Assembly: GCA_937981765.1 (NCBI GenBank)
Contig: CALJOM010000012.1
Location: forward strand, 1-64,000
Direction of reading: 5' to 3'
Source of the DNA: an uncultured Bacteroidales bacterium
Lineage (GTDB): Bacteria; Bacteroidota; Bacteroidia; Bacteroidales; Salinivirgaceae
DNA: 64,000 bases
The position numbers were made by a program, and so were the translations under genes. The number at the start of each line of letters is the position of its first letter. Position 1 is the first letter of the stretch. The notes under the pieces are model-generated. The model saw only the letters and a program-made list of their open reading frames with translations, was not told the origin of the DNA and searched no databases. Shown here piece by piece: positions 58,855-63,460 of this stretch.

Positions 58855-60114
58855 ATGAGAAATGTATTAAGGACAAATGTTACATCCGAGATTGGAAAGT
58901 TGGAAGCTGTTGTTTTGCATGTGCCCGGCCAGGAAGTGGAAAACATGACTCCCCAAAATGCTGAACGAGCGCTGTATAGTGATATATTAAACCTATCTGT
59001 TGTTCAACAGGAGTATTCCAATTTCAAGGGGGCTATTGAAAAACATGCTAAAGTCTATCTAGTTAAAGATTTACTGAAGGAGGTACTATCAAACTCAAGA
59101 GCCAAAGATACCTTGCTCGAACAAATTTACCTGAACGAAAAACCTGATTTTCCAAAGGGCTTTCTACTCTCCTTGAGCGACGAAGAGCTTTCACGTCAAT
59201 TAATAGAGGGAGTAATTCTAACTCCCGATAATTTAACAAAGTATCTCAGCAAAGAACGTTATGCGTTACGCCCCTTGCATAACTTCTTTTTCACCCGCGA
59301 TTCTGCCATAGCCGTACGGGATAAAATGCTAATAGCCCGAATGGCAAACCAGGTTCGTGAACGGGAGTCGCTGATTATGCAAACCATTTTCGACTTTCAT
59401 CCGGCGTTTCGTACTACAACCATCAACCCGCTTCAACTTTCCAAAAAACCCGAAAAAATTACTATCGAAGGAGGTGATATTTTGGTGGCTCGTGAAGATG
59501 TGCTTTTGATAGGCTTGAGCGCCCGAACCTCAACACAGGGAATCGATTTTATACTTGAACAACTCGAAAGCAAAGAGCAAATTCGCCACATTATTGTTCA
59601 AGAGTTACCTCCAACTCCGGAGTCGTTTATTCACCTCGATATGGTTTTTACCTTTGTGGATTACGACACCTGTATGGTCTTTGAGCCGGTTGTGCTACGT
59701 CCAAACCGTTATCAAACCATCCACATTTCAATCGACAACGGGAACATTCATTTTAAAAACGAAGAAAATCTTCTGGTTGCGCTAAATAAACTTGGATTTG
59801 ACCTTAAGCCAATTTTTTGTGGTGGAACCAAAGACCCCTGGGTACAAGAACGAGAGCAGTGGCATAGCGGAGCTAATTTCTTTGCCCTGGCTCCCGGCAA
59901 AATTATCGGGTACGGCCGAAATCTTTATACTATTGAGGAACTAAATAAAAACGGTTTTGAAGTTCTTTCAGCCGCCGATGTGGCTAACGGTTTGGTGGAT
60001 ATAAACAATTATAAACGGTATGTTATTGCCCTTGAAGGATCTGAACTACCTCGTGGAGGAGGCGGAGCCCGATGTATGACAATGCCTCTTTTACGGCAGG
60101 ATGTTTCATGGTAA
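58855..60114 (+). CDS. arcA: Arginine deiminase
   Basis: The enzyme hydrolyses arginine to citrulline and ammonia. This 419-residue guanidine-modifying enzyme shows FTRD at 146-149, EGGD at 205-208, His260 and Asp262 in FIHLDMVFT, and the catalytic nucleophile Cys407 in GGGGARCMTMPL. It is about the usual length. Carbamoyltransferase, carbamate kinase and antiporter genes do not follow, so the classic ATP-yielding arc operon is not present here. With rocD at 21 kb it may feed ornithine use. Confidence 0.92.
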   Translation: MRNVLRTNVTSEIGKLEAVVLHVPGQEVENMTPQNAERALYSDILNLSVVQQEYSNFKGAIEKHAKVYLVKDLLKEVLSNSRAKDTLLEQIYLNEKPDFPKGFLLSLSDEELSRQLIEGVILTPDNLTKYLSKERYALRPLHNFFFTRDSAIAVRDKMLIARMANQVRERESLIMQTIFDFHPAFRTTTINPLQLSKKPEKITIEGGDILVAREDVLLIGLSARTSTQGIDFILEQLESKEQIRHIIVQELPPTPESFIHLDMVFTFVDYDTCMVFEPVVLRPNRYQTIHISIDNGNIHFKNEENLLVALNKLGFDLKPIFCGGTKDPWVQEREQWHSGANFFALAPGKIIGYGRNLYTIEELNKNGFEVLSAADVANGLVDINNYKRYVIALEGSELPRGGGGARCMTMPLLRQDVSW

Positions 60115-60191: not shown

Positions 60192-61004
60192 TTATTTCAA
60201 AACCCGCATCTCCATTTTGATATCTTTCACCGGCCTGTCGCCAGGTTTAGTAGGTTGTGCCGCTATGGAGTCGATTACATTCAACCCTTCCACCACTTCA
60301 CCGAAAACGGTGTAATTTTGATCTAAATGTGGTGTCCCGCCAAGTTCCTGGTAAATCCGTCGCTGCTCAGGAGTATATCTAAAGGATTTGTAGTCAGGGG
60401 ATGAGATAATTTTTTGATAAATACGTTGATAAAGCATTTCTATAGAATCTTGTAGTCCTGCGTTCTTGAACTCGCGGAATTTTTGATCGTATTGGGGATT
60501 CTTTTGCATGTATTCGCGCATAAGGGCTTGAATCTGTGATTGATTAATCTGATTCTCCATTGCGTCGAGTTGCTGAGCATTGAACTTTCTCCCCTGAACA
60601 ATATAAAACTGACTTCCGGAGCTGGCTTTGGTGGGGTTTATATTATCGCCTTGACGGGCTGCAGCAAGAGCTCCCTTCTTATGTATCAACGTTGGCCGAA
60701 ATTCGGCTTCAATGGTATATCCAGGACCGCCGTTTCCAAGGGCATCGTTGGGACCGGCATTACGGGAATTGGGATCTCCTCCCTGAATCATAAAATCCTT
60801 GATGCATCGGTGGAACAACAGGCCATTGTAATAGCCTTCAGAAACCAGTTTGAGGAAATTGTCTCTATGCTTGGGCGTTTCGTTATAGAGCTCAACGACC
60901 ATTTTCCCATAAGGGGTGGTAATCTCCACACGAGGCCTTTTGCTTTGTGCTATAGAATAAAGCGAAATCGTTAGTAGCAAGAAGATTACAGCTGTTCTTT
61001 TCAT
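60192..61004 (-). CDS. Secreted cyclophilin-type peptidylprolyl isomerase with helical insert
   Basis: This 270-residue protein has a signal peptide ending near residue 20 (YSIAQ). The cyclophilin core is recognisable by VEITTPYGKMVVELYN, GLLFHRCIKDFMIQGGDP (61-78), SSGSQFYIV (128-136) and the C-terminal YTVFGEVVEGLNVID. An insert of about 85 residues (141-225, helical, charged) interrupts the core before the last strands. It is 27 bases after the hybrid kinase and may be the third gene of its operon; a periplasmic folding role is expected. Confidence 0.9.
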   Translation of the reverse strand: MKRTAVIFLLLTISLYSIAQSKRPRVEITTPYGKMVVELYNETPKHRDNFLKLVSEGYYNGLLFHRCIKDFMIQGGDPNSRNAGPNDALGNGGPGYTIEAEFRPTLIHKKGALAAARQGDNINPTKASSGSQFYIVQGRKFNAQQLDAMENQINQSQIQALMREYMQKNPQYDQKFREFKNAGLQDSIEMLYQRIYQKIISSPDYKSFRYTPEQRRIYQELGGTPHLDQNYTVFGEVVEGLNVIDSIAAQPTKPGDRPVKDIKMEMRVLK

Positions 61005-61031: not shown

Positions 61032-62939
61032 TTAAGACTGATTTTCCGGTTCCTGTGGGGTGGTTAATGTAAAAATTTTCTTTATCAGTTGTTTGGCGTT
61101 AATCGGTTTAGTAATATAATCGTCACATCCAACGGCTATACATTTTTCTATTTCCGGCTGTCCGGCATAAGCCGTTTGCATTATAATGTGCTGTTTAGAG
61201 CTAATTCTTTTTATAATTTTCGTAGCCTCGTATCCATCAACTACTGGCATTTTAACGTCCATTAAAACTACATCGTAAAGTTTCGATTGACAATAGTTGA
61301 TGGCTTCCTGACCATTTGTGGCATGAGTTATTGAAATATTAAACGCGGAGAGCACTTGTTTAAGAAATTCAAAGTTGTGTGGGTCGTCTTCAACAATCAA
61401 AATGTCGAGATGTTTCGAAAAGTTTATTTCGCTTCCCACGACTTTCGGCTTTGTTTGGCTGGACGTAATAACAGACACCTCTTTGGCCGGAAGAGTTAAA
61501 TAGAATTTGCTTCCTACTCCCAGGGTAGATTCAACGGTTATTTCTCCCTCTAACAATTCCGACAGTTTTTTGCAAATTGCTAACCCTAACCCGGCCCCTC
61601 GAAATAAGCGGTTTTTCTCATTGTCAATTTTTGTAAACCGATCGAAGATATAAGGCAACTGTTCTTCACTGATGCCAATACCCGTGTCTTTAACATAGAA
61701 AATTACTTTACCATCCGCAATGTCATGAACTCCAAACATTACGTAACCCTTCTCCGTAAATTTTAACGCATTTCCAATCAGATTCATTAAAATTTGTCGT
61801 AGGCGGTGAATATCGGTTATGAGTACAAGATTGCTTGTATCAACATTATTGTTTAGAATAAGTTCAATATCGTAAAGGTTACGCTGGTTTTTAATTTCCA
61901 GAAACGACAAATACAATTCATCTAAAACATTGCCAATGTGTACAGGGCCGTGGGTAATTTTAAGTTGTCCAGCTTCAATTTTTGATATATCAAGAATATC
62001 CTCAACCAGATTTAGGAGTGTATTTCCGCTTTGGGTGATAATTTCGACAAATTGTTTGCGTTTTTCGTCGGAAATTCCAGATTCGGTGAGTAATGCAGAA
62101 AAACCGAGTATGGCGTTCATAGGTGTGCGCAGCTCGTGCGACATATTAGTCAGAAATGCTGTTTTCAACCGGTCGGCTTCTATGGCTTTATTTTTAGCAA
62201 TCTCAAGCTTCTTTTCAATTTCATCGCGGTTTTTGTCGCGTAATTCTATTTGATTGAGCAGATTGTTAAAAGCATGATATAGGTCGGTGATTTCATCTCT
62301 ACTAGTTCTGTTCACACGGGTAGAGTAATCGCCAGATTCGGCAACATAGTGTGAAACTGATGCGAGATGCAGAATGGGTTCGGATATTATTTTCTGAAGC
62401 TGAAAAGCTCCCAACGCAGCAAGTATGGCAATAACCAATAAGGAGAGTACAAGATTAAAAGCATACGCTTTCATTTCATTTCGAAACGACTTAGTTTCAG
62501 CATAAGCGGCCAGAAATCCAAGGTGAGAGTTTTTAAACGTTATAGGAGTGATAAAAAAAACTAAATCGTCGTGGTTGGTGAAATACCGAGGATTAAATTT
62601 GTATGGGAAGGCAACTGGCATGGTGTAAGCCGTATTAACAAAATGGGATAAAAGATTGTTGTTTTTATCATAAACAGCTAATCCAACCATGTATGGAATA
62701 GCCTCTGCACGTAGCAGGATATTGTGTAATTCTATTGTATCGTTAAACGATAACGGAGCAATGGTGTAATCGGCTATTAATTTAACCCCCATTCCCATAT
62801 TTTTATTAAACGAAACCCTGGTTTTGTGAATGTTATGAACCATTATTGCAGCAAACCACAACAAAATACTACCGTAGGTAACTACAAGCGTGATGAAAAG
62901 AATTTTATTTCGTATCGAAAGGTTGTGAATCCACTTCAT
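61032..62939 (-). CDS. CHASE8-HAMP hybrid histidine kinase
   Basis: This 635-residue inner-membrane sensor has helices at about 12-35 and 160-180 around a CHASE8-like periplasmic domain (about 37-155, with IADYTIAPLSFNDTIELHNI). HAMP follows at 180-233 and a HisKA domain with His268 (NMSHELRTPMNAILG). The ATPase has Asn386/Asn390, DTGIG at 418-422 and GAGLGL at 448-453. A C-terminal receiver has Asp561 (VVLMDVKMP) and KPI at 611-613. The sensor module is that of YfiN, but the output is a kinase. It overlaps yfiR-like by 4 bases. Confidence 0.92.
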   Translation of the reverse strand: MKWIHNLSIRNKILFITLVVTYGSILLWFAAIMVHNIHKTRVSFNKNMGMGVKLIADYTIAPLSFNDTIELHNILLRAEAIPYMVGLAVYDKNNNLLSHFVNTAYTMPVAFPYKFNPRYFTNHDDLVFFITPITFKNSHLGFLAAYAETKSFRNEMKAYAFNLVLSLLVIAILAALGAFQLQKIISEPILHLASVSHYVAESGDYSTRVNRTSRDEITDLYHAFNNLLNQIELRDKNRDEIEKKLEIAKNKAIEADRLKTAFLTNMSHELRTPMNAILGFSALLTESGISDEKRKQFVEIITQSGNTLLNLVEDILDISKIEAGQLKITHGPVHIGNVLDELYLSFLEIKNQRNLYDIELILNNNVDTSNLVLITDIHRLRQILMNLIGNALKFTEKGYVMFGVHDIADGKVIFYVKDTGIGISEEQLPYIFDRFTKIDNEKNRLFRGAGLGLAICKKLSELLEGEITVESTLGVGSKFYLTLPAKEVSVITSSQTKPKVVGSEINFSKHLDILIVEDDPHNFEFLKQVLSAFNISITHATNGQEAINYCQSKLYDVVLMDVKMPVVDGYEATKIIKRISSKQHIIMQTAYAGQPEIEKCIAVGCDDYITKPINAKQLIKKIFTLTTPQEPENQS

Positions 62940-63460
62940 GATTTCGAAACCGGATGAATTATTTTTATTGCTAACGACATAAGACGGTAATTTATGTAAA
63001 ATGAGGACTCCCGAATGGAAGTTTCATTGACCTCAAAACGGAGACGATTTTCAAATATCACAAAATTAATCATTACTCCTTTTTCACAACCATTCTGACT
63101 ATGTGCTATAGTCAAAATCGGCTTTTGCTTTAGCAGCGTTACCCCTTTGGGAATAAGATTTTCATTTCCAATATAGAGTACGTGGGGTAAAGCCCTAATA
63201 GATAATTCTTCCGAATAAATGATGGTTACAGGCTTATTTTTTATCGTGTGGTTGGTGAATTGCTTCTTCATCACTTCATATAAGGCATAATCTCCAACAA
63301 TTTGTATGAGAAATGTTTCGCTTGAATCGCTAGGCCATTCGATAAACTGCGTAAACCGCTCAATGTAGATGGCTTTCATCGAAGTAATGTTCACCTGTGT
63401 GCTGTTCCCCAGGGTGGTAAACAGCAACACCAAAAAAATCAATCTTCGAAAAAAGCGCAT
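62936..63460 (-). CDS. YfiR/HmsC-family periplasmic protein
   Basis: This 174-residue protein has a signal peptide ending near residue 21. The rest matches the YfiR (DUF4154) family: KAIYIERFTQFIEWPSD, FLIQIVGDYALYEVMKKQ, RALPHVLYIGNENLIPKG, GVMINFVIFENRLRFEVN, and SFYINYRLMSLAIKI. In Pseudomonas, YfiR binds the periplasmic part of the diguanylate cyclase YfiN and holds it inactive. Here the next gene (ATGA overlap) encodes a CHASE8 hybrid kinase, so YfiR probably controls that kinase. Confidence 0.9.
   Translation of the reverse strand: MRFFRRLIFLVLLFTTLGNSTQVNITSMKAIYIERFTQFIEWPSDSSETFLIQIVGDYALYEVMKKQFTNHTIKNKPVTIIYSEELSIRALPHVLYIGNENLIPKGVTLLKQKPILTIAHSQNGCEKGVMINFVIFENRLRFEVNETSIRESSFYINYRLMSLAIKIIHPVSKS

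Follow-up and report, generated by a model that had tools for sequence, protein, structure and literature searches.

A YfiR-family protein paired with a CHASE8-like hybrid histidine kinase as a likely envelope-sensing unit in Bacteroidales

The window analyzed here, a stretch of 64,000 nucleotides from an uncultured Bacteroidales bacterium, carries a YfiR-family gene that overlaps the gene of a hybrid histidine kinase with a CHASE8-like periplasmic domain. The best explanation of our observations, and one that we consider likely, is that the two genes form an envelope-sensing unit, in which YfiR sets the state of the CHASE8-HAMP part of the kinase. YfiR has been studied almost only as a regulator of cyclic-di-GMP. 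Pairs of this kind consist of two parts and lend themselves to studying, whatever the output, how a PAS/Cache-like sensor is put into one state or another by a periplasmic protein.

Anatomy of the two genes and their neighbors

The yfiR gene (62936..63460, minus strand) encodes 174 amino acid residues beginning with a signal-peptide-like stretch. Its DUF4154 domain (62969-63382) matches the Pfam model PF13689 with 100.9 bits (cut-off 24.9) over profile positions 2-142 of 143. The best NCBIfam match, NF053591 (TOL_0243 family YfiR-like periplasmic protein), covers nearly the whole model with 96.7 bits, which is below its cut-off of 125 bits, so that the protein is not a member by NCBI's rule. 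In sequence searches of the PDB, the protein alone reached YfiR with an E-value of about 0.7 and the profile of its family with 2e-14. The AlphaFold model (pLDDT 83.6) has the YfiR fold: its top 15 PDB matches are all P. aeruginosa YfiR chains, either free or with YfiB, the best having an E-value of 1.2e-7 and a TM-score of 0.65. The promoter motif TTTG-N18-20-TAnnTTTG is absent before yfiR; the whole window has one match, with 2.3 expected by chance.

C125 is the only cysteine of this protein. It occupies the position of C145, Asn132 occupies that of C152, and alignment with YfiR of P. aeruginosa and E. coli revealed no equivalents of C71 and C110. With a single cysteine, neither of the YfiR disulfides (C71-C110 and C145-C152) can form, which rules out redox sensing through them in the window protein. 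The two cysteine pairs are a feature of proteobacterial YfiR and not of the Pfam family DUF4154.

The kinase gene (61032..62939, minus strand) begins within the end of yfiR: stop and start share the four bases ATGA (62936..62939, minus strand). It encodes a 635-residue protein with the layout TM-CHASE8-TM-HAMP-HisKA-HATPase_c-REC. On the same strand, Pfam models identify HAMP (62244..62390; 27.4 bits, cut-off 25), HisKA (61968..62165; 72.5 bits, motif SHELRTP with H268), HATPase_c (61482..61814; 96 bits, with N, G1 and G2 motifs) and the receiver (61074..61403; 97 bits). All catalytic motifs are complete, namely H268, N390 and two glycine boxes in the kinase core and D561, T589 and K611 in the receiver, and the protein is a hybrid histidine kinase. 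Hydrophobic windows at approximately residues 11-37 and 155-186 flank the periplasmic part. The original prediction of a YfiR-family gene overlapping a CHASE8-HAMP-HisKA-HATPase-receiver kinase by four bases is thus confirmed by the ATGA overlap, the domain matches and, for CHASE8, a match at the family level.

The CHASE8-like domain (residues 42-142; 62514..62816, minus strand) scored 19.7, 21.4 and 23.2 bits against PF17152 in separate runs, with a cut-off of 27. Because the kinase sequence alone stays below the cut-off, we tested its family. PF17152 matches each of the 30 aligned N-terminal sequences, E. coli DgcN included, with an E-value of 0.01 or less. A profile built without DgcN from the other 29 aligns to the periplasmic domain of E. 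coli DgcN (YfiN) over 97 columns (91%, E-value 1e-6, hhalign). The CHASE8 profile found nothing significant when searched against PDB sequences. In the AlphaFold model of the kinase N-terminus (pLDDT 83.5, 12 sequences), two long helices surround a small sheet, and the fold is most similar to those of the PAS/Cache-like sensor domains of WalK and DctB and of the LapD-type periplasmic domain of CdgS9. The predicted PAS/Cache-like fold is a common one and says little by itself. Taken together, the family-level match, the hhalign result and the fold rule out the misassignment of CHASE8 that the low score of the single protein had brought to mind.

Downstream of the kinase gene, at a distance of 27 bp and on the same strand, lies the cyclophilin gene named in the original prediction (60192..61004, minus strand; Pro_isomerase, 142.6 bits; signal-like N-terminal stretch). 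It is probably on the same transcript as the pair. A cyclophilin gene also follows the pair in one relative from the same genus (L097) and does not in L098-L100; because the adjacency is limited to the window and this relative, cyclophilin was rejected as a member of the conserved module. Further along the window, an arginine deiminase-family gene (58855-60114, plus strand; ADI, 230.5 bits) adjoins a gene for a MORN-repeat protein.

Conserved pairing and common inheritance

We searched 149 genomes of the order, calling CHASE8-like domains with the family profile. DUF4154 was found in 58 genomes and a CHASE8-like domain in 33. For 36 of the 47 CHASE8-like domains, a YfiR match lies directly upstream on the same strand, with a spacing of 129-313 bp, which rules out a chance neighborhood. 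When the loci of the 11 exceptions were read, two more proved to have YfiR directly upstream and another a divergent YfiR gene nearby. The count thus rises to 38 of 47, and the pairing is real. The pair is also present in records labeled Chitinophagaceae, Sediminibacterium, Chryseolinea, Melioribacteraceae, Verrucomicrobia, Phycisphaerae and Nitrospirota. A literature search, covering few subscription journals, found nothing on YfiR in Bacteroidetes and a single paper dealing with DUF4154 beyond YfiBNR. Among CHASE8 kinases lacking a YfiR neighbor, three (L132, L133 and L139) have, instead of a fused receiver, a receiver encoded by the next gene.

In the YfiR tree, proteins encoded before CHASE8 kinases cluster, with 3 label changes compared to 26.8 in shuffled trees; the tree is poorly resolved and the shuffles show clustering only. 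Pairwise distances over 29 YfiR/kinase pairs, uncorrected for shared ancestry, show correlations of 0.86 for YfiR with CHASE8, 0.79 for YfiR with HAMP and 0.51 for YfiR with the HisKA-HATPase core; for CHASE8 and the core within one chain the value is 0.49. A thinned set gave the same ranking (0.81, 0.75, 0.39 and 0.37, respectively). The ranking also holds in both subsets, with a smaller contrast inside the order (0.86 versus 0.75). These correlations lead us to conclude that YfiR, CHASE8 and HAMP have been passed on together as if they were a single unit and that kinase cores have been swapped at larger distances. In this the distances reproduce the modularity that Malone et al. claimed; they are silent on which output was first, and nothing in our data shows the direction implied by the original wording of an output "exchanged from cyclic-di-GMP".

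We find it very improbable that the genes are merely co-inherited neighbors, with YfiR serving another partner, for example TonB-dependent receptors, and CHASE8 sensing directly. The second YfiR-family gene of the same genome (locus L062:2988-5816, G000 contig 5) does precede a TonB-dependent receptor gene by 15 bp, an arrangement seen for 15 of the 93 YfiR ORFs of our set, and some CHASE8 kinases have no YfiR neighbor. However, this reading is opposed by the clustering of YfiR proteins found beside CHASE8 kinases, by the closer tracking of CHASE8 than of the kinase core by YfiR, and by an aromatic contact residue that goes with YfiR linkage, as described below.

Contact residues and the proposed switch

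Suppressor genetics in P. aeruginosa mapped the surface of YfiR that binds YfiN to the region of F162, E163, I169 and L183; in YfiN, the stretch that binds YfiR was placed at AAVVF (PMC3375315). In a crystal structure, E163 and I169 of YfiR touch YfiB as well (PMC4655355). The four YfiR residues align with F142, E143, I149 and L163 of the window protein, within a putative YfiN-type binding surface formed by residues 142-163 (62972..63037, minus strand; roles according to PMC3375315). On the kinase side, APLSFND (residues 61-67; 62739..62759, minus strand) aligns at the place of AAVVF (PMC3375315). At the position of F65, each of the 29 aligned kinases linked to YfiR has either Phe or Tyr. In a control comparison, an aromatic residue is present in 30 of 31 linked kinases (the exception being L140) versus 3 of 8 unlinked ones; the p-value of 0.0005, or 0.002 when the weakest unlinked kinase is omitted, is too small because the rows share ancestry. 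The direction of this contrast in the alignments is what YfiR binding predicts. Retention of the contact residues, along with the preference of YfiR for tracking CHASE8 over the kinase core, upholds the earlier proposal that the YfiR/CHASE8-HAMP sensing module is kept.

In the switch that we favor, YfiR would be exported to the periplasm, where its C-terminal hydrophobic surface would bind the APLSF stretch of the CHASE8 domain. By analogy with YfiN, bound YfiR would lock CHASE8-HAMP in one signaling state, most likely with the kinase off. Should YfiR be withdrawn, unfolded or bound elsewhere, HAMP would switch its state and the kinase would autophosphorylate at H268; the phosphoryl group would then pass to D561 of its own receiver and on to a further acceptor. 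The binding of YfiR to CHASE8, the repression, the stimulus and the downstream partner are the elements of this scheme that we infer.

The opposite sign is unlikely, although the conserved pairing and contact residues would fit it equally well. YfiR would then be an activator or co-receptor, whose form loaded with a small molecule or envelope component turns the kinase on, or turns it into a phosphatase, as in the LuxP-LuxQ system of Vibrio. LuxQ is indeed found, together with other PAS/Cache-like sensor domains, when the N-terminus of the kinase is compared by fold, and the YfiR model has weak matches to substrate-binding proteins from Rhodothermus and Vibrio. LuxP-LuxQ also consists of a periplasmic partner and a hybrid kinase with a PAS/Cache-like periplasmic domain; LuxP, however, is a ligand-binding protein of another family, which makes the likeness an analogy only. 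The fold matches go to a very common fold, and the only YfiR proteins studied are repressors, which have no known ligand in those studies (PMC3375315, PMC4655355).

Outer-membrane inputs, output and related systems

Repression by YfiR could be relieved from the outer membrane. In such a three-layer arrangement, YfiR would be captured by an OmpA-domain outer-membrane protein or a TonB-dependent receptor encoded elsewhere, and the unit would report the state of the outer membrane or cell wall as YfiB does for YfiN. This extends the favored switch and does not compete with it; we regard it as rather doubtful for the window pair. Relatives do suggest candidates for such an input. Among 32 related pairs, 8 (L049, L054, L055, L067, L069, L104, L106 and L120) have the gene of an OmpA-domain protein immediately ahead of yfiR, in most cases with an overlap, and 10 have a TonB-dependent receptor gene there. 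The OmpA-domain proteins have 780-930 residues with OmpA at the C-terminus, and four of five scanned contain PD40 repeats. At the window locus, yfiB (encoding an OmpA/Pal-like lipoprotein) is absent, and so are genes of either of these kinds: the neighbors are the cyclophilin gene downstream and a divergent gene upstream, presumably rnpA-like. Being of the same domain type as YfiB, which has an OmpA-like domain (PMC4655355), the PD40-OmpA proteins are possible counterparts of YfiB in these relatives, but they are about five times its size and their binding to YfiR is putative.

Cyclic-di-GMP is a poor candidate for the output. No GGDEF domain was matched in the window's genome, which is 92% complete, and control genomes gave the expected matches. 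In the order as a whole, GGDEF is present in 5 of 149 genomes, and none of these five belongs to the 33 that carry a CHASE8-like domain. It is therefore very unlikely that the output here runs through a GGDEF enzyme, and control of CHASE8 by YfiR in this order must mean something other than cyclic-di-GMP. As a tentative generalization, for which we would claim no more than a modest chance, YfiR/CHASE8 may be a common envelope-to-kinase switch in this order, where GGDEF is nearly absent, with PD40-OmpA proteins and TonB-dependent receptors as exchangeable inputs that capture YfiR. If true, this would be the three-layer logic of YfiBNR operating without cyclic-di-GMP.

The phosphorelay output envisaged in the original prediction is plausible from the intact receiver, but no free-standing Hpt partner was found in the window's genome. 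The kinase itself carries no Hpt domain; in the genome, Hpt was matched in a protein resembling CheA and within hybrid kinases of larger size, a third match being weak.

Comparison with YfiBNR (YfiB-YfiN/TpbB-YfiR in P. aeruginosa, yfiR-dgcN-yfiB in E. coli) shows a common sensing part and different surroundings. In both, yfiR directly precedes and overlaps a CHASE8-HAMP gene (by 11 bp in E. coli), and the YfiR fold and the contact residues on both sides are kept. In contrast to YfiBNR, the output here is HisKA-HATPase-REC and not GGDEF, the window YfiR lacks disulfides and its genome lacks GGDEF. The pair thus has neither of the two features of YfiBNR proper, a CHASE8-HAMP-GGDEF output and yfiB in the operon, and the switch proposed at the outset is YfiBNR-like in its sensing module but not in a YfiB input or a redox mechanism.

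The pair has the arrangement of the divergent Yfi systems of Malone et al. 2012, in which almost all operons lack yfiB, GGDEF often gives way to GGDEF-EAL, Hpt or a sensor histidine kinase, and contact residues are conserved (PMC3375315). MCP outputs also occur among these YfiR-YfiN[PAS] systems, and Thauera sp. MZ1T has a hybrid sensor kinase (PMC3375315), with two YfiR homologues per kinase where the window has one. The window pair shares with them the defining features, namely the synteny of YfiR with a YfiN-type periplasmic domain and the conserved hydrophobic contacts, as well as the kinase output and the absence of yfiB (which in those systems is general though not universal). Since replacement of GGDEF by histidine kinases, hybrids included, had already been described there (PMC3375315), the original proposal is a rediscovery and not a new idea. 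Our additions are the scale, the control by linked and unlinked residues, a setting with hardly any GGDEF proteins, the lack of both disulfides in YfiR, PD40-OmpA genes that precede the pair in some relatives, and a class of fused YfiR proteins.

In this fused class, 26 ORFs of relatives encode single-chain YfiR sensors (for example L118:4925-6769, L121:5028-6842, L072:2923-4983 and L070:1780-3549). Our literature search, again covering few subscription journals, found no report on YfiR with SpoIIE, the most frequent output of these proteins: a SpoIIE phosphatase is present in 19 of the 26, HisKA-HATPase in five and guanylate cyclase in two. An N-terminal hydrophobic stretch is followed by the YfiR domain (residues ~30-170), a long linker, a transmembrane segment at ~240-380 and the output domain. 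In the YfiR tree, the single-chain sensors make up one side of a branch.
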